Positions 8,428 through 38,400 of a DNA stretch of 64,000 nt are shown piece by piece. This DNA comes from Arenicola marina (lineage: Eukaryota > Annelida > Polychaeta > Arenicolidae), in the NCBI GenBank assembly GCA_964019135.1, contig OZ025263.1:30379639-30443638 (forward strand), read 5' to 3'. How positions within the stretch are numbered: position 1 is the first letter of the stretch; every line of letters begins with the position of its first letter. A program made the position numbers and the translations under genes. Under the pieces are notes generated by a model, which ran no database searches, was not told where the DNA came from, and saw only the letters and a program-made list of their open reading frames with translations.

Positions 8428-11400
8428 CTGAAAGGCAAAGCAAAAAATACAAAATGATACGAAATGTCAATTTGGGTACCCGCACGCCACTCATTGCAAG
8501 GCGCGTGCGGATAGTAGTAACAGTGGATGCACTTGCACCAACATAACATCATTATATCAGTAAACACCCAAGACTTAACATTGTACACATGGATCAACGA
8601 CATCGACGGCATTTTATGTACACAAAGTCTAGCTTAATTTAATAGTACATACTCCGGATTATCCTAATTGTCATGAAAACTCATGCGACTCCAGTAACAT
8701 AACTGGCTTCGAACCGTTTCATCTGGTGCTTGTTTCATATCTAAAGCCATTGTATTGTCTCGAAGAAGTGTTCTCGGCCATTTGTGCAACATGAGGAATA
8801 AATCGTCCAAGAACACTTCTCCGAGACAATACAATGGCTTTAGATATGAAACAAGCACCAGATGAAACGGTTCGAACCCACAACCTGCTGATCTCCGGCT
8901 AACTGAGCTAGGGAGGCACTACTCGTGGATTGACAGGACTCTTTTCTTCCAGACTGATTGACCCATTGACTGACCTTTTCTTCCAGACTGATTGACCCAT
9001 TGACTGACCTATTCTTCCCCACTGATTTACCCACTGACTGACCTTTTCTTCCACTGATTGACCCATTGACTGACTTTCTTTCAGACTGATTGATGTATTC
9101 TTTCAGACTGATTCACCCATTGACTGACCGTTTCTTCTCGACTGATTGACCCATTGACTGACCTATTCTTCCCCACTGATTCACCCATTGACTGACCTAT
9201 TCTTCCCCACTGATTCACCCATTGACTGACCTTTTCTTTCAGACCGATCGACCCATTGACTGACCTTTTTTGATATGACCTTTTTGATTGGTTTCTTGGC
9301 GACGCCGGTCGACTTCTGGCGGTTCTCCAGGTCCTTGACCTTGTAGATGCGCACCAGCCAGTGCTCCGTCGTGTACGCCTCCTCCAGATGCGTCAGCTCG
9401 AAGTTCTTGTGGCCGATCTCGGCGTTCCGCGTCCGGTCGAAGCCAGCCGGGGTGCGGAAGTCAAGCTGGAGGAACGTAGGGGGTCAAAGGTCAATTGTTA
9501 AAGGTTAAGGTCGGAGGGGGTGCAGAAGTCAAGGTGGAGGAACGTAGGGGGTCAAAGATCAATTGTTAAAGGTTAAGGTCGGAGGGGGTGCCGAAGTCAA
9601 GCTGGAGGAACGTAGGGGATCAAAGGTGAAAGGTCGAAGGTTACAATCTCAAGGTCGGAGGGGGCGGGGGGGCGGAAGTCAAGCTGGGGGAACGTAGGGG
9701 GTCAAAGATTACAGGCCAACATCGGAGGAGGTGCGGAAAACAAGCTGGAGGAAGGTAGGTGTCAAAGGGTAATTGAAGGGCACGAAAAAGTAAAGCTGAA
9801 GGAACATAGGGTTCAAAGGGCAATTGTTAAAGGTTAAGGTCGGATGGCGTGCAGAAGTCAACAAGAAGTATAGGTGGCCAATAGTCAAGATTGAAGGGCG
9901 TGAAAAAGTAAATTTGAATGAACATAGGGGTTAAAGGTCAAGGTCGAAGGGCGTGTGGAACTAAAGCTGGAGGTCGGTCGCAGGCCGGTGGGGAGCTTGT
10001 CTCCGGTCAACCATATTGGTAAACGATATGAAAATGCCTCTTTTTATCAACGGCGAAGAGGAAATCAATTACAGGTATAAACAGAAACACTGCACGGTAT
10101 AAAATACGAAACAATCCAGCTTCGAAAGCGTACCTTAATAACATGACGGAGGCTGACACAGAAAGATAACATATACCTGTAGGTTCCTGTTACAAACAAA
10201 TTATAGTTGATAGTTGCAGCGAGGTGCTTCCAGACAGTTCACTAAATTAAACTTTTCAGTGTTCAGCGTCTTTGCGTCTTCCAAATAACTTAAATTTAAA
10301 CATTTAAATAAGTATTGATACATATTATTACTATGCAATTCTTTGTTTAAATATTTCAACAGATCAACATTTAATTATTTCCATAAAACTTCGATAATAA
10401 GTATGTCAATATATACGTGTAAACATATAGCGGGACGGCGTTGTACCTGTAGTTCCCCGAAGCGGTAATAGCTCAGCTTGTACATAAGGCAGTTGAGGAG
10501 AGTGGGGGAGCCGGCCGAGTCGACGCGGAACTCACCCTGGGGCGTGAAGTAGTCAGACTCCTGCAACAAACACACGCCGCGTCAGTGTAACTCACGTATT
10601 ACTCACGCCTAACGCCAACAAACACACGCCGCGTCAGTATAGCTCACGTATTACTCACGCCTGGCGCCAACAAACACACGCCGCGTCAGTGTCTCAGGTC
10701 ACCTTTAATCATCCATCTAAATGGATGGTTTAGTTAGGTCGTGTTATAAGAATTTTAGGCCACCTTTAAGCCCACATATGAATGGATGGCTAGGTCGTTC
10801 AGTGGTCGTTCTGCCATGTAAGGGCGAACCATTGTTTCAGCATAGCTCATGTATTGCTCACGCCTAACGTGTATTACAATAATACATTTTCTACGATGCA
10901 ATGAACGATCCCTGCCACTCACCCGGATGTCCTTGGTGTGCCCCCCGCCCCCTCCCTCCTTACACAATGAATGATCCCCACCACTCACCCGGATGTCATT
11001 GGGATGCCCCCCCCCCCCTCCCTCCTTACACAATGAATGATCCCCAACACTCACCCGGATGTCATTGGGATGCCCCCCCCCCCCCTCCTTACACAATGAA
11101 TGATCCCCAACACTCACCCGGATGTCATTGGGATGCCCCCCCACTCCCTCCTTACACAATGAATGATCCCCACCACTCACCCTGATGTCATTGGGATGCC
11201 CCCCCCCTCCCTCCTTACACAATGAATGATCCCCACCACTCACCCGGATGTCCTTGGGATGCTCCCCCCCCCCTCCCTCCTTACACAATGAATGATCCCC
11301 ACCACTCACCCGGATGTCCTTGGGATGCTCCCCCCCCCTCCCTCCTTACACAATGAATGATCCCCACCACTCACCCGGATGTCCTTGGGATCCTCCCCCC

Positions 11401-14400
11401 CACCTCCCGCCTTACACAATGAATGATCCCCACCACTCACCCGGATGTCCTTGGGATGCTCCCCCCCCCCTCCCTCCTTACACAATGAATGATCCCCACC
11501 ACTCACCCGGATGTCCTTGGGATGCTCCCCCTCGGCGATCCGGACCATCCAGAGGAACTTGTTGATGTCGTCTCCGGAGTAACCGATGACGCCTCCGAAG
11601 ATGACGAGGACATAGTCCACGTCCAGGGAGCGCATGATGTCATAGGCCGCGGACTCGTTGGAGGACATCGCCTTGCCCACCTGCCAGGGGACACATCACA
11701 CCAGGTTATATATCACATCAGGGTACACATCACACCAGGTTATATATCACATCAGGGGACACATCACACCAGGTTATATATCACATCAGGGTACACATCA
11801 CACGAGGTTATATATCACATCAGGGTACACATCACACGAGGTTATATATCACATCAGGGTACACATCACACCAGGTTATATATCACATCAGGGTATACAT
11901 CACATCAGGGTACACATCACACCAGGTTATATATCACATCAGGGTACACATCACATGAGGGTACACATCACACCAGGTTATATATCACATCAGGGTACAC
12001 ATCACACCAGGTTATATATCACATCAGGGGACACATCACACCAGGTTATATATCACCTCAGGGTACACATCACACCAGGTTATATATGACATCAGTGTAC
12101 ACATCACACCAGGTTATATATCACATCAGGGTACACATCACATCAGGGTACACATCACACCAGGTTATATATCACATCAGGGTACACATCACATCAGGGT
12201 ACACATCACACCAGGTTATATATCACATCAGGTTACACATCACACCAGGTTATATATCACATCAGGGTACACATCACGCCAGGTTATATATCACATCAGG
12301 GGACACATCACACCAGGTTATATATCACATCAAGGGAAACATCACACCAGGTTATATATCACATCAGGGTACACATCACACCATGTTATATATCACATCA
12401 GGGTACACATCACACCAGGTTATATATCACATCAGGGTACACATCACACCAGGTTATATATCACATCAGGGTGCACATCACACCAGGTTATATATCACAT
12501 CAGGGTACACATCACACCAGGTTATATATCACACGAGGTTATATATCACATCAGGGTACACATCACACCAGGTTATATATCACATCAGGGTACACATCAC
12601 ACCAGGTTATATATCACATCAGGGTACACATCACGCGAGGTTATATATCACATCAGGGTACACATCACGCCAGGTTATATATCACATCAGGGTACACATC
12701 ACGCCAGGTTATATATCACATCAGGGTACACATCACACCAGGTTATATATCACATCAGGGTACACATCACACCAGGTTATATATCACATCAGGGTACACA
12801 TCACACCAGGTTATATATCACATCAGGGTACACATCACACCAGGTTATATATCACATCAGGGTACACATCACGCGAGGTTATATATCACATCAGGGTACA
12901 CATCACACTAGTTTATATATCACATCAGGGTACACATCACGCCAGGCTATATATTACATCAGGGTACACATCACGCCAGGTTATATATCACATCAGGGTA
13001 CACATCACGCCAGGTTATATATCACATCAGGGTACACATCACACCAGGTTATATATCACATCAGGGTACACACCACAAATAGGTTATATATCACATCAGG
13101 GTACACTTCACAAATAGGTTATATGTGTATATCAAAATAGGTTATATATGTATATCAAAATAGGCTATATATTTCACCAGGTTACATATCAGGCCAGAGT
13201 ATACAACAGTTGGCAGAACATCCGCAAGTACAGCGCTAGTGGCTCAAAGTCATAATTAAAGAAGGACGGTGGCAGATTTCGGGAACGCAGTTTAGCCGGC
13301 TACGGGGCTTTGTGGGCTACAATCGCTCATCATTTACATAGTAACTTTAGCCGACTAGGCCCCGCAGCCGGCTACACTGCGTTCGTGAAATCCGCCACTG
13401 GTGTCTTGGATCACATTTGTGCATGCCAGCGGATAAATATATTAGGAGGCGCAGGGCTCTATCAGCTCTACCACACCAGCATTGCTATTGTCCTGAGCTA
13501 CTCACCAGAGCTATGTGACTGTTGTTCCAAGTGTTGTTGTCGACTAGCGTGGTTTTATTGGCCATGCCCGCTATCTGATAGCCGTAGTCCCACCAAGACA
13601 TGACGCGTGCCTGGTCCTCAGTGTTCTGTCGCAGCCAGTAGTATGCCTCGCGGAAGTCGTCCAGGATGTTGCGGGTGCTGCAGGGAAGAGGAAGTGAAGA
13701 AATGTCAGGAGTATTTTTACCTACTTTTATAGACATGAACGGATTTTCTTTTCTTTTGGTGTGCTGTAGGGAGGAGAGAGCGGCGAAATGTCAGTTGGTT
13801 GTATATTCAGGTCACTTTTAGCCAATTCTGGTCAAATGGAAAAAGGAAGAGTAGAGCTCTTGGGTTTTAATTTATTTAAGTCACCTGTTTGTCTACCCAT
13901 CACGTTGGTGGGAAATAAAGATCAAATCAGTAAGATCAGTAACCCCCTAATCTTTGCGGAGCCATGTCACCGGGGTAATCCAGTACTCTTTGCGAAGAAC
14001 ATGGGATCTTTATCCTGCAACCACACTCACCAATCCACGTCGGAGAAATGTCAGGACATCAGGAGTGTTTGCAGCCACTTTTTTTTTACACATGAAAGGA
14101 TTTTATTTTGTTTTAGGCCACTAATGTGCGCATGGAATAATTTTTATGGGCGTTTTGGTCACTTTGGTGAAATAAATATCTTGTCCTTTTATGCAACTAA
14201 AACAATGCTCTTGACACATGGGATAACAGGTTTGAGGATTCCCCAAAAATACGTCAAATCTGCTGTCAGATAGTCTTCTTTTGGGCCTCTTTGCTACTAA
14301 CATTGTCAAATAATCATAACATAATCCATAATTATAGTCACTACAGATTGCGGGCCAGGTTTGTCTCCCTGCCTGTACAGCCATCAGGACATACGATAAG

Positions 14401-17400
14401 ACATGTATCCGGATGAAGACTACAGACAGGGAAGTTTGCTGTCCCTGGGTATAGCGACACACCAGAGCCACAGAGGTCATCTCCGGCGTGCTATTAACCC
14501 AGGATGGAGAGCTTCGCGCCGCGTGCCAGTTACACACGAGAATGACATGACGAAGGCTTGTCATGGCCAATATATAGCTACTGGGACACAATGGTTGGTA
14601 ACCGATGTGTCCACACCAATGATGAATGGATGGATGACACGGTGTGTAGGCCACCTGCGTGTCCACGAAGGCAGGAACACATAGACCCAAGGAACCTCCT
14701 GACATTAAAATGAGATGAATTGATTAAACGGTCCCGGACACAGCTGGGGTTTAAAGCCGCAACCTGTTGTCTGCAGTAGAGTGCGCTATAACTTCGACAA
14801 CGTTTAGCTCCGTACTAGAGATGGAAAATTGTAAGAAATACAATTTCGGTTGCAGACCACAAGGCCATGCGCACTGTAAAGCTTAGAAAGTATCAAGTCA
14901 TGTCAGACCCTCGTTTGAATGAGACATGGGGTTACCCTCACCCCCACCCCCCACCATCGCCTCCCATGGCATGGCTGTAAGCTTCCTTTACCAATCTTAC
15001 ACCCTTGTCCTGTGTCTCCACCACGAAATATACCATAACAAAATATTTTTTTTGTGAGTTTTGGGCTGCTTTTGTTGAGCCAAAAAATAGGGACAAGAAG
15101 ACTTCAGGGATAATGAAATGGGGTTGGATGACACACAGCTAGTGAGGCTGCCTGTATACAGTGAAGGGTGTTTGTCTCCGCCGCCTAGATCACAAAGTCC
15201 ACGCACAGGACTCGTGTGTACATGGGAGGAGTGAGATCTCTCTCCCCAGGAACGCTGCACACCAGGGCACACGGGTAGCCACTGGCATGATACTAGCTCA
15301 AGGGTGAACGCCTAACATTGCTGGTAAATACAGGACACTAGCTCCAGGGTGAACGCCTAACATTGCTGATGAATACAGGACACCAGCTCCAGGGTGAACG
15401 TTTAACATTGCTGATAAATACAGGACACTAGCTCCAGGGTGAACGCCTAACATTGCTGATAAATACAGGACACTGGCTCCAGGGTGAACGCCTAATATTG
15501 CTGATAAATACAGAACACTAGCTCCAGGGTGAACGCCAAACATTGCTGATAAATACAGGACACTGGCTCTAGGGTGAACGCCTAATATTGCTGATAAATA
15601 CAGGACACTAGCTCCAGGGTGAACGCCTAACATTGCTGATAAATACAGGACACTAGCTCCAGGGTGAACGCCCAACATTGCTGATAAATACAAGACACTA
15701 GCTCCAGGGTGAACGCCTAACATTGCTGATAAATACAGGACACTGGCTCCAGGGTGAACGCCTAACATTGCTGATAAATACAGGACACTGGCTCCAGGGT
15801 GAACGCCTAACATTGCTGATAAATACAGGACACTGGCTCCAGGGTGAACGCCTAATATTGCTGATAAATACAGGACACTAGCTCCAGGGTGGACGCCTAA
15901 CACTGCTGATAAATGCAGGACACTAGCTCCAGGGTGAACGCCTAACATTGCTGATAAATACAGGACACTGGCTCCAGGGTGAACGCCTAACATTGCTGAT
16001 AAATACAGGACACTAGCTCCAGGGTGAACGCCTAATATTGCTGATAAATACAGGACACCAGCTCCAGGGTGAACGCCTAACATTGCTGATAAATACAGGA
16101 CACTGGCTCCAGGGTGAACGCCTAACATTGCTGGTAAATACAGGACACTGGCTCCAGGGTGAACGCCTAATATTGCTGATAAATACAGGACACTAGCTCC
16201 AGGGTGAACGCCTAACATTGCTGATAAATACAGAACACTAGCTCCAGGGTGAACGCCTAACATTGCTGATAAATACAGGACACTGGCTCCAGGGGGAACG
16301 CCTAACATTGCTGATAAATACAGGACACTGGCTCCAGGGTGAACGCCTAACATTGCTGATAAAAACAGGACACTGGCTCCAGGGTGAACGCCTAACATTG
16401 CTGATAAATACAGGACACTGGCTCCAGGGTGAACGCCTAATATTGCTGATAAATACAGGACACTAGCTCCAGGGTGAACGCCTAATATTGCTGATAAATA
16501 CAGGACACTGGCTCCAGGGTGAACGCCTAACATTGCTGATAAATACAGGACACTGGCTCCAGGGTGAACGCCTAACATTGCTGATAAATACAGGACACTG
16601 GCTCTAGGGTGAACGCCTAACATTGCTGATAAATACAGGACACTGGCTCCAGGGTGAACGCCTAATATTGCGGATAAATACAGGACACTGGCTCTAGGGT
16701 GAACGCCTAATATTGCGGATAAATACAGGACACTAGCTCCAGGGTGAACGCCTAACATTGCTGATAAATACAGGACACTGGCTCTAGGGTGAACGCCTAA
16801 TATTGCTGATAAATACAGGACACTGGCTCCAGGGTGAACGCCTAATATTGCTGATAAATACAGGACACTAGCTCCAGGGTGGACGCCTAACACTGCTGAT
16901 AAATACAGGACACTGGCTCCAGGGTGAACGCCTAATATTGCTGATAAATACAGGACACTAGCTCCAGGGTGGACGCCTAACACTGCTGATAAATACAGGA
17001 CATAGGCTCCAGGGTGAACGCCTAATATTGCGGATAAATACAGGACACTGGTTCTAGGGTGAACGCCTAATATTGCGGATAAATACAGGACACTAGCTCC
17101 AGGGTGAACGCCTAACATTGCTGATAAATACAGGACACTGGCTCTAGGGTGAACGCCTAATATTGCTGATAAATACAGGACACTGGCTCTAGGGTGAACG
17201 CCTAATATTGCTGATAAATACAGGACACTGGTTCTAGGGTGAACGCCTAATATTGCGGATAAATACAGGACACTAGCTCCAGGGTGAACGCCTAACATTG
17301 CTGATAAATACAGGACACTGGCTCTAGGGTGAACGCCTAATATTGCGGATAAATACAGGACACTAGCTCCAGAGTGAACGCCTAACATTGCTGATAAATA

Positions 17401-20400
17401 CAGGACACTGGCTCCAGGGTGAACGCCTAATATTGCGGATAAATACAGGACACTGGCTCTAGGGTGAACGCCTAATATTGCGGATAAATACAGGACACTG
17501 GCTCTAGGGTGAACGCCTAATATTGCTGATAAATACAGGACACTGGTTCTAGGGTGAACGCCTAATATTGCGGATAAATACAGGACACTAGCTCCAGGGT
17601 GAACGCCTAACATTGCTGATAAATACAGGACACTGGCTCTAGGGTGAACGCCTAATATTGCTGATAAATACAGGACACTAGCTCCAGGGTGAACGCCTAA
17701 CATTGCTGATAAATACAGGACACTGGCTCCAGGGTGAACGCCTAACATTGCTGATAAATACAGGACACTGGCTCTAGGGTGAACGCCTAATATTGCGGAT
17801 AAATACAGGACACTAGCTCCAGAGTGAACGCCTAACATTGCTGATAAATACAGGACACTGGCTCCAGGGTGAACGCCTAATATTGCGGATAAATACAGGA
17901 CACTGGCTCTAGGGTGAACGCCTAATATTGCGGATAAATACAGGACACTAGCTCCAGAGTGAACGCCTAATATTGCGGATAAATACAGGACACTGGTTCT
18001 AGGGTGAACGCCTAATATTGCGGATAAATACAGGACACTAGCTCCAGAGTGAACGCCTAACATTGCTGATAAATACAGGACACTGGCTCCAGGGTGAACG
18101 CCTAATATTGCGGATAAATACAGGACACTGGCTCTAGGGTGAACGCCTAATATTGCGGATAAATACAGGACACTAGCTCCAGGGTGAACGCCTAACACTG
18201 CTGATAAATACAGGACACTAGCTCCAGAGTGAACGCCTAACATTGCTGATAAATACAGGACACTAGCTCCAGGGTGAACGCCTAACATTGCTGATAAATA
18301 CAGGACACTGGCTCTAGGGTGAACGCCTAATATTGCTGATAAATACAGGACACTAGCTCCAGAGTGAACGCCTAACATTGCTGATAAATACAGGACACTG
18401 GCTCCAGGGTGAACGCCTAATATTGCGGATAAATACAGGACACTGGCTCTAGGGTGAACGCCTAATATTGCGGATAAATACAGGACACTGGCTCTAGGGT
18501 GAACGCCTAATATTGCTGATAAATACAGGACACTGGTTCTAGGGTGAACGCCTAATATTGCGGATAAATACAGGACACTAGCTCCAGGGTGAACGCCTAA
18601 CATTGCTGATAAATACAGGACACTGGCTCTAGGGTGAACGCCTAATATTGCTGATAAATACAGGACACTAGCTCCAGGGTGAACGCCTAACATTGCTGAT
18701 AAATACAGGACACTGGCTCCAGGGTGAACGCCTAACATTGCTGATAAATACAGGACACTGGCTCTAGGGTGAACGCCTAATATTGCGGATAAATACAGGA
18801 CACTAGCTCCAGAGTGAACGCCTAACATTGCTGATAAATACAGGACACTGGCTCCAGGGTGAACGCCTAATATTGCGGATAAATACAGGACACTGGCTCT
18901 AGGGTGAACGCCTAATATTGCGGATAAATACAGGACACTAGCTCCAGAGTGAACGCCTAATATTGCTGATAAATACAGGACACTGGTTCTAGGGTGAACG
19001 CCTAATATTGCGGATAAATACAGGACACTAGCTCCAGGGTGAACGCCTAACATTGCTGATAAATACAGGACACTGGCTCTAGGGTGAACGCCTAATATTG
19101 CGGATAAATACAGGACACTAGCTCCAGAGTGAACGCGTAACATTGCTGATAAATACAGGACACTGGCTCCAGGGTGAACGCCTAATATTGCGGATAAATA
19201 CAGGACACTGGCTCTAGGGTGAACGCCTAATATTGCGGATAAATACAGGACACTGGTTCTAGGGTGAACGCCTAATATTGCGGATAAATACAAGACACTA
19301 GCTCCAGGGTGAACTCTCATCCAATGGGGTTAAACAGGGGTAAAATACAGATGCCACACAATTATTATTTCTCTTGATATCGCTGGAAAAACCCATTACG
19401 AAGTACCGGTAACGTACTGTAGATGGAGTGACTATGAACCGTGGGTTAGGGTTGTCTCCCTGCCTGTACAGCCATCAGGACATATGATAAGACATGTATC
19501 CGGATGAAGACTACAGATAGGGAAGTTTGCTGTCCCTGGGTATAGCGACACACCAGAGCCACAGAGGTCATCTCTGGCGTGCTATTAACCCAGGATTGGT
19601 CGGTTTAAGTAGGATAAGGTAAGATAGTTTTTTTTTTTTATTTAACGCCGGTATATAAAAGTCAACAATAAACATTATCACAAGAGCTATTGACCGACAA
19701 CGATAAAAAAAAGATGAGTTGATGAGATAAATGTACATATGATAGCGAAATATGATAATGAAAATATAACCACCGACCGACGCTATAATCTCTGTAGGTC
19801 ATATCGCTATAATCTCTGTAGGTCATATCGCTATAATCTCTGTAGGTCATATCGCTATAATCTCTGTAGGTCATATCGCTATAATCGCTGTAGGTCGTAT
19901 CGCTATAATCTCTGTAGGTCATATCGCTATAATCTCTGTAGGTCATATCGCTATAATCTCTGTAGGTCATATCGCTATAATCTCTGTAGGTCATATCGCT
20001 ATAATCTCTGTAGTTCATATCGCGACGATGGAAGGGGTTCAGGTAGAAATGAGCCATTGTCTCCCTGGGAGCAACATCTTACTTTTTGCGCAGAAGAACA
20101 GGGGACTTGTCTTCACAGGTGGGATTTGAACCACGCACCGGCCGCTTGGGCTGCCTCATGCTCATGTTTATTCAACTGGTTGGTAAATGAACCGGTAGAT
20201 AAATCCCGATAGGCGGGGGAGTGACACTTACCCGTCGTGTCCGTAGAAGGCCAGCACGATGGAGGGGCTGGAGAGAGGGGGGGGGGGGTGACACTTACCC
20301 GTCGTGTCCGTAGGAGGCCAGCACGATGGAGGGGCTGGAGAGAGAGGGGGTGCAGGGGGGGTGACACTTACCCGTCGTGTCCGTAGGAGGCCAGCACGAT

Positions 20401-23400
20401 GGAGGGGCTGGAGAGAGGGGGGGGGGGTGACACTTACCCGTCGTGTCCGTAGGAGGCCAGCACGATGGAGGGGCTGGAGAGAGGGGGGGGGGTGACACTT
20501 ACCCGTCGTGTCCGTAGGAGGCCAGCACAATGGAGGGGCTGGAGAGAGGGGGGGGGGGGTGACACTTACCCGTCGTGTCCGTAGGAGGCCAGCACAATGG
20601 AGGGGCTGGAGAGAGAGGGGGGGGGGGTGACACTTACCCGTCGTGTCCGTAGAAGGCCAGCACGATGGAGGGGCTGGAGAGAGGGGGGGTGGAGGGGGGG
20701 TGACACTTACCCGTCGTGTCCGTAGGAGGCCAGCACGATGGAGGGGCTGGAGAGAGAGGGGGTGGAGGGGGGGTGACACTTACCCGTCGTGTCCGTAGGA
20801 GGCCAGCACGATGGAGGGGCTGGAGAGAGGTGGGGGGGGTGACACTTACCCGTCGTGTCCGTAGGAGGCCAGCACAATGGAGGGGCTGGAGAGAGGGGGG
20901 GGGGTGACACTTACCCGTCGTGTCCGTAGGAGGCCAGCACAATGGAGGGGCTGGAGAGGGGGGGGGGGGTGACACTTACCCGTCGTGTCCGTAGGAGGCC
21001 AGCACAATGGAGGGGCTGGAGAGAGGGGGGGGGTGACACTTACCCGTCGTGTCCGTAGAAGGCCAGCATGATGGAGGGGCTGGAGAGAGGGGGGGTGGAG
21101 GGGGGGTGACACTTACCCATCGTGTCCGTAGGGAGGCCAGCACAATGGAGGGGCTGGAGAGAGAGGGGGGGGGGGGTGACACTTACCCGTCGTGTCCGTA
21201 GGAGGCCAGCACAATGGAGGGGCTGGAGAGAGGGGGGGGGTGACACTTACCCGTCGTGTCCGTAGGAGGCCAGCACAATGGAGGGGCTGGAGAGAGGGGG
21301 GGGGGGGTGACACTTACCCGTCGTGTCCGTAGGAGGCCAGCACAATGGAGGGGCTGGAGAGAGGGGGGGGGGGGGTGACACTTACCCGTCGTGTCCGTAG
21401 AAGGCCAGCATGATGGAGGGGCTGGAGAGAGGGGGGGTGGAGGGGGGGTGACACTTACCCGTCGTGTCCGTAGGAGGCCAGCACAATGGAGGGGCTGGAG
21501 AGAGGGGGGGGGGGTGACACTTACCCGTCGTGTCCGTAGAAGGCCAGCACGATGGAGGGGCTGGAGAGAGAGGGGGTGGAGGGGGGGTGACACTTACCCG
21601 TCGTGTCCGTAGGAGGCCAGCACAATGGAGGGGCTGGAGAGAGGGGGGGGGGAGGGTGACACTTACCCGTCGTGTCCGTAGGAGGCCAGCACAATGGAGG
21701 GGCTGGAGAGAGGGGGGGGGGGGGTGACACTTACCCGTCGTGTCCGTAGGAGGCCAGCACGATGGAGGGGCTGGAGAGAGAGGGGGTGGAGGGGGAGTGA
21801 CACTTACCCGTCGTGTCCGTAGGAGGCCAGCACGATGGAGGGGCTGGAGAGAGGGGGGGGGGGGTGACACTTACCCGTCGTGTCCGTAGGAGGCCAGCAC
21901 AATGGAGGGGCTGGAGAGAGGGGGGGGGGGTGACACTTACCCGTCATGTCCGTAGGAGGCCAGCACAATGGAGGGGCTGGAGAGAGAGGGGGGTGGGGGT
22001 GACACTTACCCGTCGTGTCCGTTGGAGGCCAGCACGATGGAGGGGCTGGAGAGAGTGGGGGGGGTGACACTTACCCGTCGTGTCCGTTGGAGGCCAGCAC
22101 GATGGAGGGGCTGCTGGAGAGAGGGGGGGGGGGTGACACTTACCCGTCGTGTCCGTAGGAGGCCAGCACGATGGAGGGGCTGGAGAGAGAGGGGGGTGGG
22201 GGTGACACTTACCCGTCGTGTCCGTTGGAGGCCAGCACGATGGAGGGGCTGCTGGAGAGAGGGGGGGGGGTGGGGTGACACTTACCCGTCGTGTCCGTAG
22301 GAGGCCAGCACAATGGAGGGGCTGGAGAGGGGGGGGGGGGTGACACTTACCCGTCGTGTCCGTAGGAGGCCAGCACGATGGAGGGGCTGCTGGAGAGAGG
22401 GGGGGGGGTGACACTTACCCGTCGTGTCCGTAGGAGGCCAGCACGATGGAGGGGCTGGAGAGAAAGGGGGGTGGGGGTGACACTTACCCGTCGTGTCCGT
22501 TGGAGGCCAGCACGATGGAGGGGCTGCTGGAGAGAGGGGGGGGGGGGGTGACACTTACCCGTCGTGTCCGTAGGAGGCCAGCACGATGGAGGGGCTGGAG
22601 AGAGAGGGGGGTGGGGGTGACACTTACCCGTCGTGTCCGTTGGAGGCCAGCACGATGGAGGGGCTGCTGGAGAAAGGGGGGTGGGGGTGACACTTACCCG
22701 TCGTGTCCGTAGGAGGCCAGCACGATGGAGGGGCTGCTGGAGAGAGGGGGGGGGGGGGGTGACACTTACCCGTCGTGTCCGTAGGAGGCCAGCACAATGG
22801 AGGGGCTGGAGTAGGCATTGCTGGTGACCCAGGTGCAGTGGACGGCGAAGAGCATCAGCATCATGAGGAGCGCCACGACCACGATGCTCTTGATGTTCAT
22901 GCCCACGCCCTCCTCCTTGGGACGGTCGTCCTTCGGCTTCTTCGTCTTGCCAACCTGGTGGGGGACGGTGGGGGACGGTGGGGCGTAGTCAGGTGGGATA
23001 GGGTAGGGAGGGGCGAGGTGGGATGGGGGGAGGGAGCGGGGGGGGGGGGAAGCGGGACGACAAAAGAAAATAGGACAACTTTAATTCATGATATCGTCAC
23101 GAAGGTTAAAGGTCAACACACGGAGCCAAAACAGGGTCACGTGATACAATCCAGGTATTGAATCAACATTAGCGGAAAAACGAGGAAAGACCTTTAATTA
23201 ATTGACGCAAATAAATGAGTAAATATATCCCCAGGAGGGATCAGTGCGAAATAAAAGAAAAATGCAATCGCTTTATCGCCTAATCGTAATGTAAATAAAT
23301 CGCCATGACCTATAAAGGAGCGATTATACAAATGATCAGAAATGTTCATATAGGGGGAACAATCTGTACTATTATTGAGACCGCAGTTAAGTTATATCTC

Positions 23401-26400: not shown

Positions 26401-29400
26401 AGAGCGTGGGGGGGGGGCGGGCGGCGCGGGGGGAGTGAGGAGTGGAGGGGGGGGGGGCGAGTGGTGGCAACATGCCGTATTTCCTTAACTACCTATTACT
26501 AGCATACATAATACACTGACAACAATACCAAGAGGGTGTGTGTGTGAGGGGAGGGGGAGTGGGAGGGGGGGGGGATACACAACACACAAGGAGTGGGAAT
26601 ATAACAAGGCCGTTATTAGGGTTTTTAAACACTGTCAAGGTACCTCCTTGGGTCGGTCACTATCCGAGCTGTCCAGCTGCGAGTTACTTTGCTGCTGTTG
26701 CTGTTGCAAGGTATTATGGGAATGTTTGCCCTTTTTGACCTTGGCGCGACCGCTGCTGCGTCCATTGGCCGGTTTGGCGACGGTCGTGATTTGGACCTGG
26801 GGTCCGTCGGTGCAAAGGTTAATGGTGATGCAGTGTCCGGTTAATCAATTTGGAATAATTCTCATTAACTATTTAATCAATTTCAACAACCCGACACACT
26901 AATTCTAAAAAAAAATCTTGAAAATACGAGCAAAAGTGACGTTCTACTAAAATTATTCTGATGTTTTAAAATTGAGAAAATTTCACGTTACATGACATTA
27001 AACTGAAATCTTGAACTCTATAAATACCACAAAATTCACGTCCCATTGAAAATATTCTGATTTGTTTTAAAACTGAGAATATTCGCGTTACATGATATTT
27101 CAATGCAATACTTCGGGCCTTCGGCAATGCATTCAATAAGGAAACTTGTCTCAAAACCATGTCTAACTTATAACTGAAAATCCATTACCACACCGGACAT
27201 ACTAAGTGCGTGGCCTCACAAAGTAGTGACGTTCTACCCAACACAGTGAATGACCTCATAAAGTGGTGCCGTGGAGCGCTACCCAGAAGAGTGTCACACA
27301 CTGAATACCATTGCCTAAGTAAATATGTTGCTTGTGTGCACAGACAAGATGATAACGTGTACATGTACTACCATTATTATGCGGCCACTAAACACGGAAG
27401 AATAACACAAGAAGCCAACAAAATGCCAATTCGTACACAGAAAATGTTCCTCCACAATACATCCATGTATCAGCAATTACAACGGTGTGAGATCTGCCAA
27501 AATAACAACAGATATGTCTTCAACCTCAGGCACGATTAAAATGATAATGTAACCGAGCTGGGTGGATGACTGAGCTAATACTGGAGCACAAAACGACCGA
27601 TAGTATAGTTGGTAAGAAGGACCAAGGAATTGGTGACGATTCTGATAGGGACATACAGGCCGTCAATTTGCCAATAGTCATCAAAAGACTAGGACAAAAA
27701 TTGTTTGTTTTTTGGTCAAGTAAAACTTAAGATAAATATGCCAAATTTGTCCCCATGCGACTCGTACAAATGAGGCTTGGTTAGCGGACTTATCTATGGT
27801 TTAGGAAACAGTTCATGGATGGGTTTTGGTACGTTTCACCTGACAGCCCGGCTATGTTACGGTCACCATGTTGGCAATATATCGATTTCCTTGGTTAGGC
27901 GACAGGTAAAGATTACAATAGGAGTGTGGGCCAGGAGAGCCACGTGACCGTGACGAGCCAGGCAACCATGACGACGAGTCACGTGACCGAAACGAGTCAT
28001 CACCGTGGCGCCGTCTACATTATGAATTATGTATCAGGTAAAACGAGTAACAGATGTGTGACATCGAGAGAGAAAGAAGCTATGGAGATGGAGAGGAACA
28101 GGGGAACAGAAAGGCAGGGAGAGAGACACGAGAGACAGAAAGAGAAACGTATAAATAGGCCATGGGAGAGAGACACATAAGAAGATGACAAAGAGAAGGA
28201 AGAGAGGAAAGAGAAAGACACTAAAAAATACAAAAAAGGCCGTGACGAAAGTGAGAGAAACAAAAAGCGGGATAAAAGGAAGGGACAGAGTCATTAGATA
28301 GAGCCACATGCAGCCAGTCGGCGAGAGATACAGAGAGAAAACAGATACGGTTAGAAAGAGATACAGATACAGATAGTGAGCTATACAGATAGACATAGAT
28401 AGAGGTGGAGGGATACAGATAGGAAAGCTTACAGACACTGATAGAGATAGAGAGATACAGATAGGAAAACTTACAGGCACAGATATAGAGATGGAGAGAT
28501 ACAGATAGGAAAACTTACAGGCACAGAGATAGAGATGGAGAGATACAGATAGGAAAACTTACAGGCACAGAGATAGAGATGGAGAGATACAGATAGGAAA
28601 GCTTACAGACACTGATAGAGATATACAGATAGGAAAACTTACAGAGATAGATATACAAATACAGATGGAGAGATACAGATAGGAAAACTTAGAGGCACAG
28701 AGCTATACAGACACACAGCTATAACTGGAGAGACAGGGCGAGGCCGTGCAGAGGCGAGGCCGCGAGGTGGCGCCACTCACCTTGTCGTAGTACTTGTCGT
28801 TGCGCTCCTTCTCGTCGGCCTCCTGGAGCGACGGTTTGCGGCCCTCGTCCTTCAGGTAGATCTCCAGCGTCTTGGAGAAGGCGATGGACGCCAGGACGCA
28901 CACCACCGGGGTCAAGGTCAGCATCAGGCGCACCATTACGCCGGCGAAGTACACGGCGCTGATGGCGTACAGCAAGACTGTGAAGAGAGGGGCGTACAGT
29001 TATGGCGTACAGCAGGACTGTGGAGAGAGGGGGCATAGTGATAGTACAGTCATGGCGTACAGCAAGACTGTGGAGAGAGGGGCGTACAGTTATGGCGTAC
29101 AGCAGGACTGTGGAGAGAGGGGGCGTAGTGATAGTACAGTCATGGCGTACAGCAAGACTGGAGAGAGGGGCGTACAGTTATGGCGTACAGCAGGACTGTG
29201 GAGAGAGGGGGCATAGTGATAGTACAGTCATGGCGTACAGCAAGACTGTGGAGAGAGGGGCGTACAGTTATGGCGTACAGGGATGGCCTTCACCAGGACT
29301 GTGGAGAGAGGGGGCGTAGTGATAGTACAGTCATGGCGTACAGCAAGGCTGGAGAGAGGGGGCGTACAGTGATGGCGTACAGTGATGGCGTACAGCAAGA

Positions 29401-32400
29401 CTGTGGAGAGGGGGCGTACAGTGATGGCGTACAGGGATGGCCTTCACCAGGACTGTGGAGAGAGGGGCGTACAGTAATGGTACAGTGATGGTACAGTGAT
29501 GGCGTACAGTGATGGCGTACAGCAGGACTGTGGAGAGAGGGGCGTACAGTAATGGTACAGTGATGGCGTACAGCAGGACTGTGGAGAGGGCGTACAGTGA
29601 TGGCGTACAGCAGGACTGTGGAGACAGCGTGCAGTGATGGCAGATACAGTGAGGATGTACAGCACACTTTTTGAATAAATTCGCAAAATGTAATTACAGA
29701 AATGAACTTCGTAATAAGTTTGTCCATAAAAAAAGATCATTCGATAATTAAAAAAGTCACCAGATAGCAACACCACTCACTGAAGACGCGTTCGTCGTTG
29801 ATGTCCTTGATGACGAACCAGACGCCGGCGGGGAAGACGCAGACGAGGATATGAAGGTCAAAGAAGAAGGACACCCACGTGGTCGGCTGGTGCTCGGAGA
29901 CGGAGGCGATAATAGGGATGTGTATCTTGGCGTAGCCGGTGTCCCACAGGGCGTAGAAGCGACCGCTCCACGGCGCGATGAAGCCTGAAACACGTATGGA
30001 TGTCACCTAAATGTCGAGCGTCTAGAGTCTAGAGATCCATGATCAAAACTTTACATGCAGCATTTTTCCCCCAAAAAATATTTAATAGTGTTTTAAATGC
30101 ACTTGAATAATGTATTTGGATGGAGGGGAGGTGTGGGGGGGGGAGGGGAAGGTCAGTCAAACCGAAATGCGACATTTATGTCCACCGGCGTGATGGTATC
30201 AGACACGTGACAGGCGATTAGATGCCAGTTATGGTAGGGAGATCCTATACAAGGCCGGTAAATTAGTTGGAACGCTTAACAAATTTTTAAACGCCACTCA
30301 GCATTATTTTCATTCAATTTAGACGAATTGGATCACTACAGTAAATGGTTCGTGTGAGTCGTACGTGATCTATTTTGAAACAATGGCTCTAACGCGGAAG
30401 AACCAAATACAAATCAAATACTGAGGTATCTGAGATATAAACCGAGTTCAATGAGGCATCTCATGTAGCTGGGCAGCCACGTGTATCTGGGGAAGTTACG
30501 TGATTCTCATGTATCTGGGGAGCTATGTGTATCTCATCCATCTGGGGAGCTATGTGTATCTCATGCATCTGGGGAGCTATGTGTATCTCATGTATCTGTG
30601 GAGCTATGTGTATCTCATGTATCTGTGGAGCTATGTGTATCTCATGTATCTGGAGAGCTGTGTATCTCATGCATCTGGGAAGCTATGTGTATCTCATGTA
30701 TCTGTGGAGCTATGTGTAACTCATGTATATGGGGAGCTATGTGTATTTCATGTATCTGGCAAGCTACGTGTATCTCATGCATCTGGGGGGCTATGTGTAT
30801 CTAGGAAGCTATGTGTATCGTATGCATCTGTGTGTATCGCATGCATCTGTGTAGCTATGTGTATCTCATGTATCTGTGGATCTATGTGTATCTCATGTAT
30901 CTGGAGAGCTGTGTATCTCATGTATCTGTAAAGCTATGTGTATCGCATGTATCTGGAAAGCTACGTGTATCTAATGCACCTGGGGAGCTATGTGTATCTC
31001 ATGCATCTGGGGAGCTATGTGTATCTAGGAAGCTATGTGTATCTCATGTATCTGGAGAGCTATGTGTATCGCATGCATCTGGGGAGCTATGTATATCGCC
31101 TGTATCTGGGGAGCTATGTGTATCGCCTGTATCTGGGGAGCTATGTGTATCGCCTGTATCTGGGGAGCTATATGTATCGCCTGTATCTGGGGAGAGCTAT
31201 GTGTATCGCCTGTATCTGGGGAGAGCTATGTGCATCGCCTGTATCTGGGGAGAGCTACGTGACCCGGTCTGAGGGGCCCAGGAGGGAGGTCACGGAACCT
31301 TACCGGCGTATGTGAGGCCGACGACCGCGGAGAAGACGAGCGCGCCGGCCGCAACCACCGCCAGGATGAAGAAAGTCCGGAACTCCGACTTCGTCATGCC
31401 AGCCTGGATGAACTTGAGCAAGGCGAAGGCGTGCAGCAGCAAGAACACACCTGTAAGGAGGTGGATGTACTTGAGGATTTTGTCCACATGATGGGGGAAC
31501 TGGGTTACAGAAATATCCTTGGACAATGACTTGGGGTTGGATGACCCGCCCAAGGATGACTGAATGAATGAAACAATCGACAGATCAAATTCTCATAATC
31601 CGTTAACGATATCCACTGTCATAAAAGTTAATAATACATTTCATGTGATGCAAACAACAATTGTACAAGTAGTCGGTTAAAGACATACTTTATGCAAAAC
31701 GGAAAGTGAAAGTGGAATTCACTACCAATATGCCAATTATGGGTCGACATAATAGTTGCATGTATAACGATTGTCTTACCAGCAGAAGCCATATGTTCAC
31801 TCGTCCTTATTGGTTGGAATCCCACAAATGGTATTTGCATGGACATCACCAGTCCGAGGATGAAAAATGAATTGTAGGCTGCAAAGAAAAATTAAAATGT
31901 TAAACAGAAGGGAGATAATAAACTGATATTTTTTAGAGATTAAATGCTAAGTTGCGGCAGAGCGCCTGTATCTTGCACCTCGTGTGCCTCATTTTTTATA
32001 TTTTATTAATGGACAAAAACTCACATTTTGTTAGTCATGATAAATGAGATAAATCCTTATTCAATAGGAGAACATTGTATTTAAATCCACAATAAACATT
32101 AGCACATGCTCGATTGACAGACAATAATCAATATATTAATAGCAGTAGGCCTAAGGTGTCTAGACTATCAGACGGATGGTGTTTCAAGCCACTTTTGTGC
32201 ACACACGGGCTAAACCGGGCACATCGAATCCCTACGAACATTGAGCGGACACGGCTCCACGCTCTCTGATCTCGCGACCACGGTGGCTCCCGTCACTGAT
32301 CAGATTGGTTGGTTCGTTGTATATTCAGGACGCTTTAACCACATTGGTCATATCGCGTCAATGGGAGAAAGAAGGGAGAGTTGAGCCATGTCCCCGGGGG

Positions 32401-35400
32401 CAAACCCCTACTCTTTGCGAAGAAGGACATGGAATCTTTATCCTGCGACCACACAGACATGGCCACAGCGGGGCGCGAACCACCGATCCACTTGCCGTTA
32501 TTTACGCTCTCAGGTGACCAGAGCACTCATGGCGAGCGCTCCAACCCACTGAGCTACCGGGCCGGCCCCCGTGACTGATCAGAAACAAGGCCTTCTGTTT
32601 GTTTGGCCTGCAGTAGATGTGGACTCACCGACGTAGATTCTCCTGGAGAAGCGGCCCATCAACAGAAGTACAAACACGTGCAGAGGGATGAGGTTAATGA
32701 TAAAGACGTAACCTCCCCACGCCGATACCTTAAACAAACAGTCGCAAATAAATGTGCAATATTACTATTTAATTCATACTTCATTAATGACACGACATGT
32801 GTGACCAATTGAACGGAGTAATGTAATTTGTTAATTTTAATTTTAATTAAATAATTTGTAATTACAACTATGTAATTCATACTTAATTAATGGCACGACA
32901 TGCGTTACGAATTGAATGCACTGTAGTTATCCCCCAATCAGGCCAAGTAACCCGTGGTTAAACAGAGGTTAAATTATTGTTAACACACAATTAGTAGCAC
33001 AAAATATTATAACTGCAATAGTAATACTATAGCCTCAACTGTTCTCGCAGGCTTCTTACCATATAAAAATAAGAAAGAGCAGTCATAGCACCCCAGTATA
33101 TAGTTCCTGTCTTCACTGCTTTTATCTGAAAGCACGCAAAACCCATGATTAATCTCAGGAAAGACGGTTACCAGAACAATGTGAACTTGAGCTGAACAAA
33201 CATATTTATTCCAAATCAATCCACGAGCGAACTGTTTTTATCACACTAGAGATGGGGCGCAAGTTCACAACGTTCTGGATATTATCACTGAAGCGCAGTA
33301 TAAATAAGGTGAAACAATTAACATACAAAAAATGGTTGATTCAAAAAAATATATCAAAGTCTTTCGAGTCCACATTTGGCAGAGCTTAAAAATTACAAAA
33401 ACATCTTGGATATTCCTTTTTGTTAAAAATATATCACACAAGACTTTATACAGTGATAAGTACACATGAACTAATATATTATGGTTAAAGTCTCATGCAC
33501 TACTGACGAGATGTGCCCAGAATAGGGATAACTTGATTTAATTACAGACCTTGTAGAGGCGACGGCTTCGGTACTTACCCATAAGTAATAGGTCAACATC
33601 AAGGCAAATATTGCAATGCCCTCATTGTCATAGCTTCCAGCCACAGATCGACTGATATAACCAGGGACTGAAATAACAATGGGTGGAACGTTGCTTCAGG
33701 CCAGCTTCATGCACATATGGGCGTCAACGGGCCCAGGAAGTCACCCAGGATAATGAAATAGATGACATGCGACATAATTTCCAAGCATGATCCATGTTTA
33801 AACATCTCTAACCTATTACTCTGTGCATTCGCTTTATAACTTTATTTAAGTAACCATTCTTCATTTATATAGCCGAAGTAATTATTGATTAATTATCTCA
33901 CAATTAAATATCTCGAAATTTAAATTCCATCCTAGTTATCAAACCAAAGCCTTCATTTTTCATTTCATGAAGAATATCAATATAGAGGTAAGTAGTACCG
34001 ACTTTATTAAAACACGCAAAAACAATTTTTCTACACTAAATAATGAGGAAACTTACCAATGGCTATAAAGCAAGCTGCAAAGAGACCGGCTCCAGAGTTC
34101 CATAACTCTTTGGTGAGGAAGTATGTTGACAGTGAAGTCAAACCACTAAAATTTAGGAAAATGCCAGTCAGTGAGTATATTATGCGCATGGCATAATCTC
34201 ATTTAATCTTTTCTTAAAAAGTAGGTCACAAAATACTTTTTTATGCCATAAAATTAAGTTTCTGAAAAGCTTCAAATGCATATTACCAGGTATTATACAC
34301 TTAGTTTATTTCGAATAGCATTTACTTTATCCAACATTTTTTTTCCCAGAAAACAGGGACTCTTTATCAAAGTAAGTGTTGTCGATACTATGAGAAAGCC
34401 AAATCCAACACCGACAAAAAGTTAAGAAAAGCAAAGGTTTTTTTTCAATTTTTTGTTGTTTTTGTACCTACCTGAATATAGGGGCGAGAAATACACAAAT
34501 GTCTCGTATGTGGATAGGAATGTTCAGAGTGTGTAATACAGTATGTATGGCCCCGGATGTCACCATCAACCCGGGGTAGACCTGCCAACGAAAAACAGGT
34601 ACACATTAAATAACACACAGTTTCCCTTAAGAATCGGTAAATGAATTCAACCCATCTCTTTATGGTAATTCATAGTAATTGGTTGTAAAGTAAGGACGCT
34701 TGAACCAATTCGGGTCATATCGCGTCAACGATAGAATGAAATGGTCAGGGTCAAGGGTTATGTACCCAGCGTAAAAACATATTGAACATGCCTGCCCATT
34801 AGTGTTTATCTGCATGACCGAGCGCCACACAGACAGGTGTTCTGACACATGCACAGAATCCCGAATACTCCACTGGCTGGATCAATAAAACCTCCAGCAT
34901 GACCAACGATGAAGATACAACAAATCAATGTGACAGGTGTTGTATGAATGGAGCCAGACAACCACAAAAGATGGTTGGACACTGATATGAGCAGGCGAAA
35001 AATAATTAAATCGGTGATCAATTTAAATGATGCTGATATGGATTTCACCCATTGGAAATATAACAGGCGGACAGGTGTTGGAATAACTAGGTTTTAAAGT
35101 GCATTTACATAAAATGACAAGGAAATCCTATTTCATGTGGCTCAGAATTACGATCAAGGCACTTTTATGCAGCATAAAATTGCTTTAGTACATTTACATA
35201 AAATATGTAAATATGCATGCTAAGCGGGAGTGAGAGTATGTGGGAGTGACAGTGATGTTAAACACAATTTTCACTAATTTGTTGAAGTCCTTAGTCACCA
35301 GTCTAATTCGTTTTTACTTACTAAATGTCAAATAGGGTTTGGAATTGTGATATACAATTTTATAGCAAGATTATTTGAGCTGACCCAAATGTCTTTACAT

Positions 35401-38400
35401 ACGGAATTTTCACCAGTGAATTGTAGGAGACATCAAGACATATCCTTGAGTGCCTGACTATGTATTTTCTTGCATGCAGATCCATACACACTCCAGCCAA
35501 AATCTAAGTTGGATCTGATCAGATCCCAAAAGTATTTCCAATCAGTAATGGCCAGAACTTAAATATATGATATTGAGTACCGGTATCTTGAACGCATTTT
35601 ATTTTAAAATATTTGAAGAGTGGGAAGAAACTGTCTGAAAGATTTATGTCAAGGACAATTCTAAGGAATTTTTATGAGGGTTTGCATAAGACAGGGACAT
35701 CTTTATAGTGCTTTTTCTTCCACACACCATCATCCTTATGAGAAAGGTCACACTTGTTCTATTGTACTTACAGTTCCACCAACAATCCTGCCGAGTGGAT
35801 ACCAAGCTCTCTCATCAAACCAGTTGAGGAAGTTGTAGAACCCATGGTTCACCATATAATGTGTGGCTCTGTAGTTGAACCTGAAACACACATGATAAAT
35901 ACAAGATTACCATAAAAGTTCAAGGTTTCCATATCTTGCCTTGATAGCATAGTGATGAAAACATGTATGAAAGCTATTGCAATATATTTTCTTGGTATTT
36001 TCATACTTCAGTACCTAGTACTTACAATTCACTTTTTTACTTCATCTGTTTTTCTTTACATTCAACAGATACTTCCTGCTACACTTTTGGCTCTGCACTT
36101 GCATCCCTTACAGTATATATGGCACCTCCCCTCTATGCAGTTCTCCCCTACATATTTCACATGTATCGACAGACACTAAACACAATTGTTGTTGTGTGAA
36201 AACCTACATAAAATAAATCAGATCATTCTACTCTATGAAATATGGTATGTAAATTAATTCCTGCACATCAAATCATTGTTTTATATTCCATTCAATGAAT
36301 GCCAGCTAAAAAAACCCACATTTAGAACCCACAAAATGTATTATTGTAGTAAACATTAGGCATGAGTAATATGTGAGTTATGATGAAACAATGGTTCACC
36401 CTTACATGGAAGAACATCCATTAAAAGTGGGTCCTGCTCTCAAAGTCTCAATGAGAGTTAATTTCATTACTTAGAAATCAAGCTGTTCCACAGACATGAT
36501 AAACACCATGCACAAAGGACAACACAAGTTCTTCCAGTCAAGAGTCAATTAGAATGGCTCCCAGGCCAGGTTAGCCACAGATAAGCAAGGAGATATATGC
36601 CAGTCAATTGCATACCAGCAGTTGCCACAACTAATACCAATTCTCTAGAGATATTACCATCTTGTCAAGTATCAGACCAGCTGGTGGCTTTCTAATGACA
36701 ATGACTGGACACTTATATCAAGGTGTTGCATCCTACCAGATTAGGTTACATTTTGTTCAAGGCTATTTCTTGAGTCATGCCTTACCATTACCACCTTCCA
36801 CGATTCACGTGAAAAATCTGGCAAAAAAGCTAATAATAACAATAGAGCTTTCCATTGGTTGGTTAATTATTTATAAGGAATATTATATCACATTTCAATA
36901 TACTAAACAACTACCGGTAACTGGTAGTCACCACAGACAGTTCTCATAATCCCTCCCTGTCATACAGGGTATTAGCCAGAATATTTTTTGGCCAGCCAAA
37001 ATTTTGGCTGGTAACAATAAGTGTTCACATCAAATCTGAGCACTATGATTTTCTTCTAAACCTCTTAACTTTCTCCCATTGGTTCCCATTATAAGGAAAA
37101 GGCCTGAACTGCAGTTAGACCTCTATTCCATATAACATATATACAAGGAGACCCAAAGCCTGCATTTTATATTCTGCAATGCAGTCAGATATCAAATACT
37201 CTGAGCCTACCACAGCTAGCTGTTTTAAGACATTAATGTCTCTTTTTTTTAAAGCCAAACTCACCCCTGATTGTAAGCTTTATTTAAACCATAGCTGCTA
37301 CAGAAACTTTCAGAATATGGAATTATTATTTTGGCTGATTAATATTGTAGACGAGATTTGGTATTCTGAGTTGGTGAAGCATTGTTTCATACAGCAAACT
37401 TGCGCTTGCTGGTCAGGCACAGACATTAACTTTGGATGTTGCTTGCGCAGCCAGGCATGTGGTGTTGAGATTGAGCTGCCCCCATAAAAATCTACTGGTC
37501 CTACCAAATTGAGAAGCGACTATGTTGATATGACCAATACACAATGCATTTATTGCATTATTTACAAAGATTTCACTGATTGTGCAAAGTCATCTTCCAA
37601 CAAGCTAGCACCTATGACTGAGCGCTTAGTTTTCCGTTGTTATATTGACGAGGCCAAAAAAATGAAAGCTACTGTGCATGCATTTATTGTTCACATTGAT
37701 CAGTGCCTGCAGGTTGTTTGTTCAGTGTAACTGCTGAACATTGCTGATTAGCAAGAGATGGCAGTTTAGATCTTTACCCACCCTGTCAGGCATACAACCA
37801 GTAATTCAACCTGTCCGGCAGTCGGTTATGTCTCTCCTTGCTGGTTAGTCCCATATGAGAAAGTCTCATATCCACAAGCAGGAAAGGCAGGTATAAGATT
37901 TATTTGCATGGGTTACTAAGTGTTTTTAACACTACAACAGTACACAATCATATAAACGTTATATTGACTGTCAGACCTGAATGCATATGACCCAGAAAGT
38001 GATCACGCTTCTGTCAAATTAATTGACATTAGACTTTCTAAAAGATATCATCGTAATCATGGAGACTTTGAAATATAACAAAGCAAGTTGTAAGATATAT
38101 GCTGAACTATTGCCACACTCAAACAAGTTTTCCCCATCAAAACCACTTCTTGCCACGCATGTTTGAGCATTGCAGTATAGGCTTTAATGGCTAGGACATG
38201 TGGCATTATGGTGTGAAACTGACCATGTCACTTGGGGAACCAACAATGTCATATGGGGCTACTTGCTGGTTTTGTAACATCCAGGCCTTCTGTCATGGTC
38301 ATATATGACTAGGTATAACCTTACTTGATATAAATTCAACAAAGTATTACATTATTGCAACTAAGAAGTCATTATGATTCAAACTAATTAAAAAGCATTG

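Follow-up and report, generated by a model that had tools for sequence, protein, structure and literature searches.

The kind of element reported here, a minisatellite that begins at the end of an exon and repeats its splice donor, is already known. In human IFI6 a minisatellite supplies multiple splice donors, two downstream units of which are used, giving three mRNA species (PMC4526556). According to the account in PMC2812944, human duplicated genes have internal tandem repeats at exon-intron boundaries that can alter splicing and create (alternative) introns, and in potato an intron gain via tandem duplication across an intron-exon boundary has been reported (PMC4974935). Minisatellites have also been described in the introns of earthworm metallothionein (PMC12783039), and a Caenorhabditis elegans minisatellite as over-represented near alternative splicing regions (PMC4039745). 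The present locus lies in a stretch of 64,000 nucleotides (the window) of the polychaete Arenicola marina (assembly GCA_964019135.1, contig OZ025263.1, positions 30,379,639 to 30,443,638; all positions below are those of the window), in which the 12th coding exon of the STT3B gene runs into an array of 38 copies of its own end and donor. This array is called 12D, and other arrays are likewise named by exon number and edge (D, donor; A, acceptor). What is new is how many phase-matched cassette units there are and that a single gene carries several arrays anchored at its exon edges. The reading put forward is that these minisatellites were probably seeded by duplications across splice junctions, the exon-proximal donor being the one used and the units being unselected passengers.

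Among the described systems IFI6 is the closest precedent; 12D likewise sets out from the end of an exon and has that exon's donor in each unit (GTAAGT in 38/38, the first being the exon's own). The repeat of IFI6 is smaller, with units of about 12 bp and some 26 copies. The units of 12D differ from them in holding a C/T tract and an AG as well, an extension of the exon here runs at once into a stop codon, and arrays stand on further exon edges of the gene; in addition, distal donor use is reported for IFI6, whereas 12D is seen in genomic sequence. Zhuo et al. are said to have described, in 2007, human introns that came from tandem arrays. The boundary repeats of human duplicated genes resemble 12D in being of minisatellite size and in their location, but as reported they average 30 bp in 4 copies and were compared with transcripts, whereas 12D has ~68 bp in 38 copies seen at the genomic level (PMC2812944). 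As in the potato case, a boundary-crossing duplication moves splice signals into a new context, although one duplication there yielded a new intron while 12D consists of many copies within an existing one (PMC4974935). The earthworm metallothionein arrays are also large annelid intron minisatellites, but with monomers averaging ~180 bp, situated in intron 1 and not described in that account as splice-junction copies (PMC12783039). A search of the open-licence literature did not bring up any gene with several minisatellites anchored at its exon edges among the matches listed (titles and abstract starts), which is weak evidence of absence.

Anatomy of array 12D in the STT3B gene

The gene lies on the minus strand. 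A 264-residue piece of its product matched human STT3B (6s7t, the best PDB match) with 517.8 bits against 382.6 for STT3A and the WWDYG motif is present, so that homology favours STT3B over STT3A. Exons were placed by tblastn with the Capitella and Owenia STT3B proteins followed by splice-site inspection, which gave a model of 16 coding exons (39830 to 9265) with an open, in-frame coding sequence, AG before 15/15 acceptors and GT after 16/16 donors; the last coding exon was not located by this procedure. The best named full-query match, among the matches listed, was that of Capitella teleta (82%), and in a tree of 31 proteins the window's STT3B stood beside Capitella with weak support (83/43) and its highest identity there (86%), a position from which an annelid source is probable.

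Coding exon 12 (22770-22954, minus strand), found by tblastn, has a CAG acceptor and a GTAAGT donor and ends in phase 2 (GG|C); its last 36 nt and donor are what 12D repeats. The first base of the exon-proximal donor, which is presumed to be used, is at 22769. The downstream exon 13 (13506-13677, minus strand) starts C|ACC CGC and holds WWDYG, and the intron between them is, with 9,092 nt, the longest of the 15 complete introns. The original prediction called the array-bearing exon exon 13; in the present model it is the 12th coding exon (22954-22770), a number that a 5' untranslated exon would alter.

Tandem Repeats Finder reported the array at 20215-22811 (minus strand) with 37.9 copies and 91% matches, a head-to-tail minisatellite within the 10-100 bp range. 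Segmentation on an exon-internal anchor, independent of the donor, gave 38 units of 64-74 nt, the first being the end of exon 12 itself and 37 being extra. Each unit consists of CCAG, the 36-nt exon end, GTAAGTGTCAC and a C/T tract; read in order, a C/T tract, mostly CTCTCTCCAG, precedes the exon-derived 36 nt and the donor. The near-complete conservation of AG and GTAAGT that had been predicted was found again, with GTAAGT in 38/38 units and CCAG in 37/37 spacers. The C/T tract, the CCAG, the donor and the ~68-bp length of the predicted unit also stood, but the "exactly 36 nt" holds for 31/38 units only, the distance from CCAG to donor being 39 nt in 6/38 (with an additional CAG) and 37 nt in 1/38. 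A higher-order period was weak at most (best lag 6, 9/32 unit codes equal). The unit had 0 matches in contig collections, which carries little information as these are viral and prokaryotic and records near the window's genome were possibly left out, and no Rfam families or tRNAs were found.

The array begins inside exon 12 and terminates in unrelated intron sequence, its last unit continuing into GTAAGTGTCACTCCCCCGCCTATCGGG, presumably the old intron. Immediately ahead of the last 36 nt of exon 12 stands CTACTCCAG, and the acceptor-like CCAG of the units, which matches the exon codons TCC AGC, is probably exonic rather than intronic in origin. A founding tandem duplication probably fused the C-rich beginning of the downstream intron with the exonic CTCCAG, which would account for the exon end, the donor, the C/T tract and the AG in each copy. 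The young minisatellite would then have grown to 38 copies by slippage and unequal exchange, with the splice signals as passengers. Reading through the first donor adds HDG and meets a stop (TAA) at once. As any extension of the exon ends in this way, mRNA would normally be made from the exon-proximal donor and, of the outcomes considered, only the first donor, alone or together with an in-phase cassette, gives a full-length product.

Arrays at other splice junctions of STT3B

Eighteen arrays were counted between 5,000 and 40,500 (period of at least 9, Tandem Repeats Finder score of at least 50, overlapping rows merged). Eight of the 31 exon edges lie within 5 nt of an array, namely the acceptors of exons 11, 12, 14, 15 and 16 and the donors of exons 12, 14 and 16, and five lie inside one. 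When arrays were placed at random anywhere in the gene (5,000 runs), a mean of 1.43 edges were touched and 0 runs reached 8, and a mean of 1.26 edges fell inside (p 0.006). Since several introns consist almost entirely of array (664 of 803 nt in intron 10), this null was regarded as too lenient. Each array was therefore kept in its own intron and allowed to intrude 20, 40 or 60 nt into exons (20,000 runs). The 8 touched edges then stood against means of 1.29, 1.99 and 2.5, and were reached in 0, 1 and 0 of the 20,000 runs respectively; the 5 edges inside arrays stood against means of 1.0, 1.73 and 2.26 (p 0.0008, 0.011 and 0.037). The excess of edges strictly inside arrays thus weakens to p 0.037 at 60 nt intrusion, but remains. 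When the test was restricted to the 13 arrays that are at least 100 nt long, 7 edges were touched (p ≤0.0001) and 5 were inside (p 0.0004 to 0.015).

Several of these arrays, all on the minus strand like the gene, copy the exon edge itself. When the 22-mers at the edges were searched with up to 4 mismatches, 37 extra copies were found for 12D, 12 for 11A, 9 for 14D and 4 for 16A, and 0 for the other 27 edges. Array 14D (10899-11531) holds 10 copies of 66 bp (its own and 9 more) of the end of exon 14 with a GTGAGT donor, and array 11A (28962-29641) holds 13 copies (its own and 12 more) of the exon 11 acceptor and the first exon bases. Array 16A (9449-9627) similarly repeats the acceptor of exon 16 with the bases that open the exon, one copy being without its AG, and two more copies stand upstream at 9695 and 9756. 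From the exon 16 donor extends array 16D (8941-9269), with 34-bp units carrying GTCAGT (9 in total) and a short A-rich similarity on the exon side. At the remaining edges, array 14A (11685-13065; 34 bp, 40.6 copies) ends 4 nt from the start of exon 14 with a unit without exon sequence, array 15A (10564-10690; 52 bp, 2.4 copies) duplicates the tract directly upstream of the exon 15 CAG, again without exon sequence, and 12A (22957-22983) is a short repeat of 10 bp in 2.7 copies in the acceptor tract of exon 12. That arrays occur on several edges of one gene speaks for a general process of expansion rather than for a special device to make microexons, and the process that formed 12D would have struck several other splice junctions within the GC-rich, array-rich half of the gene.

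Two further repeats were noted in the same gene. By eye, the acceptor region of exon 13 (13620-13800) seems to be present a second time 86 nt upstream in a diverged form (CTGACATTTC...CCCTACAGCACAC), which may stem from an old duplication of the splice site that falls short of the repeat finder's threshold. Intron 12 also holds, away from exon edges, a 45-bp unit repeated 89 times (15292-19314), in which one minus-strand frame is open for 1,343 codons.

The third-position GC content (GC3) of the coding exons is 145/277 (52%) in exons 1-8 and 409/465 (88%) in exons 9-16 (p 1.5e-26, post hoc), and this jump coincides with the onset of dense tandem arrays. The stretch of exons 9-16 (9265-31450, minus strand) is about half tandem array (50% of 9266-31450, compared with 0.4% of 31451-39660), and 8/16 edges are touched in exons 9-16 against 0/15 in exons 1-8 (p 0.002). 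Absolute G4Hunter scores, a comparison that omitted the five shorter arrays, were 0.53-1.06 in the five edge-covering arrays and 0.02-0.37 in the eight other arrays of at least 100 nt in the gene (exact rank p 0.0008, post hoc). All these observations would fit a segment that is GC-biased, recombining or fragile and in which duplications are seeded by G/C runs next to exon edges; stalling of replication or repair at such runs, or frequent recombination, would be the probable cause. G-quadruplex (G4) motifs are reported to be about threefold enriched near splice junctions, an enrichment said in the same account not to extend beyond vertebrates, which disfavours a general G4 habit in worms (PMC9065059).

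Besides this reported restriction to vertebrates, several points weigh against the reading of passenger minisatellites seeded at splice junctions. Array sequence adjoins the edges at 12A, 14A and 15A but the exon is not copied there, and at 16D the exon-side copies are weak, with 0 extra at the 22-mer threshold. The edge-abutting arrays 14A and 15A have low G4Hunter values, and both the G4Hunter and the GC3 tests were devised after the pattern had been noticed. The permutation p values assume that arrays are independent, and, as the last exon had not been located, 5000 was chosen manually as the far end of intron 16. The data come from one gene in one assembly, so that the edge enrichment may not generalise. 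As for 12D itself, unequal exchange has shuffled the variants and the founding duplication is not directly readable, and 38/38 intact donors are expected under selection for use as well.

Use of the units as exons or decoys

The units could instead form a reservoir of microexons, some transcripts including a single unit of 36 or 39 nt, or more than one provided that these are not neighbours, shortly before WWDYG, which is how the original prediction saw them. Much of the anatomy agrees with this. Inserted in silico between exons 12 and 13, 36/37 extra units keep the frame and add no stop while the 37-nt unit shifts the frame, so that the predicted match of split-codon phase (at what was then called the junction of exons 13 and 14) is borne out; the same 36 have an acceptor, a donor and a length divisible by three. 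However, any such duplication has a 1 in 3 chance of fitting the phase. The 12-residue insert is predicted 28 residues before WWDYG, in the position foreseen, and is identical in 24/37 extra units, the others giving close variants or, once, a frameshift. The gap from a donor to the next acceptor is 28-37 nt, close to the ~30 nt of the prediction, and because of it adjacent units are not both usable by introns of ordinary size, whereas skipping one unit leaves 93-110 nt. Since the second unit would need an intron of 28-37 nt after the exon's own donor, the ~37 frame-preserving microexons proposed are reduced to ~35 candidates, although the 37 extra copies and the phase of 36 of them were confirmed.

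The splice signals are also strong. Position-weight matrices were derived from the sites of the gene itself (15 donors and 15 acceptors, a small set). On these, the unit donor had the top leave-one-out score among 16 donors. The 38 CCAG sites (the exon's own included) had a median score of 10.3 (range 3.6-12.4), which exceeds 13/15 real acceptors (leave-one-out) and 99% of 1,415 other AGs. With matrices that include the gene's own sites, 43 AG and 38 GT sites in 12D scored at least 5. The corresponding AG/GT numbers elsewhere were 1/19 in 14D, 11/2 in 11A, 0/18 in 16D, 2/0 in 16A, 0/26 in 14A, 1/1 in 15A and none in 12A. Strong acceptors and donors thus occur jointly in number in 12D alone among the eight edge arrays. 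Units with both signals were looked for in the other seven and were not found in number.

Against use as exons, no insert at the exon 12-13 junction was found in any of 214 fetched STT3B relatives, apparently all from other species (the best 120 of 7,515 and the best 120 of 2,043 matches of two protein searches). In these 214 proteins the stretch between AYSSPS and DDFREA, these motifs included, was found 215 times, 214 times with the normal 12-residue spacer and once, in P0046, with 11 residues. One of the relatives, P0001 (Mytilus coruscus STT3, 942 aa), has the region before WWDYG twice, both with the normal spacer, possibly through a gene-model or assembly duplication.

Conservation among the units was compared by column in 37 of the 38, the indel-bearing unit being omitted. 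Variable columns numbered 0/11 in the donor and 5/36 in the exonic part, so that conservation of the donors does not significantly exceed that of the exon part (Fisher p 0.32) and there is no evidence of selection on the splice signals. The five exonic variants are ATC/ATT, GTG/ATG, TCC/TTC, TAC/AAC and CAC/CAT, and a sixth, GAC/GAT, is confined to the omitted unit. As 3/5 are nonsynonymous and one unit is frameshifted, no coding constraint is apparent among the copies, although a young array could be used without leaving such a trace. It had been left open whether the conservation reflects recent expansion or selection; because donor columns show no significant excess of conservation, intact splice signals are what recent amplification alone would be expected to leave. 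The anatomy, the frame and the strong signals of the microexon proposal hold, but with no insert among the 214 relatives fetched and selection on the units not seen, its use in transcripts appears unlikely.

A second alternative is that the 37 extra donor/acceptor pairs are occupied by U1 and U2AF but not spliced and thereby slow or retain intron 12, tuning the output of STT3B. Human decoy exons in long introns are reported to bind splicing factors, to be rarely spliced in and to promote retention, and 12D resembles them in placing exon-like units within a long intron; each human case is one exon whose function has been tested, however, whereas 12D is an array of candidate decoys (PMC12017769). 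That the array with many strong pairs stands in the longest complete intron would suit such a role, but the other edge arrays are without such pairs (14D being rich in GT and 11A in AG), so that the pairs would be a by-product of one array and a decoy function seems quite improbable. Lastly, although long homopolymer C tracts and many arrays hamper assembly, copies invented or multiplied by the assembler are a very improbable source of 12D, given that its units vary in spacer length, CAG duplication, base variants and mosaic order and that the flanks are unique and the coding sequence intact, 38 being the copy number as assembled.

Strong donors in series compete with each other, and those nearer the acceptor are often favoured. 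A cost or a low-level misuse of the 12D donors is therefore plausible.

Wider bearing of the locus

Elsewhere in the window, on the plus strand at 1434-1844, a gene convergent with STT3B seems to end, apparently encoding the C terminus of an autophagy-receptor zinc-finger protein (Pfam Zn-C2H2_12), and an AT-rich array (1258-1597) lies at or just upstream of this gene end.

A broader and more doubtful proposal, which we would advance only tentatively, is that splice junctions are hot spots of tandem amplification in this lineage. G/C runs next to exon edges in a recombining segment of rising GC content would then duplicate donors and acceptors repeatedly, and introns would enlarge outward from the exon edge. 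Reservoirs of pre-phased cassettes would result, some of which, as in 12D, might be spliced at a low level or act as decoy exons setting the output of STT3B, with a copy number varying between individuals.

A minisatellite of this kind, anchored at a splice junction, illustrates a way in which introns may grow longer from their ends, and shows that a conserved core gene can hold dozens of strong competing splice sites. The locus offers a natural setting for asking how the spliceosome picks among identical donors in series and whether new exons and introns arise from tandem duplications that span splice sites, and the sharp GC3 step coinciding with the arrays suggests a local domain of recombination or repair that could be mapped.

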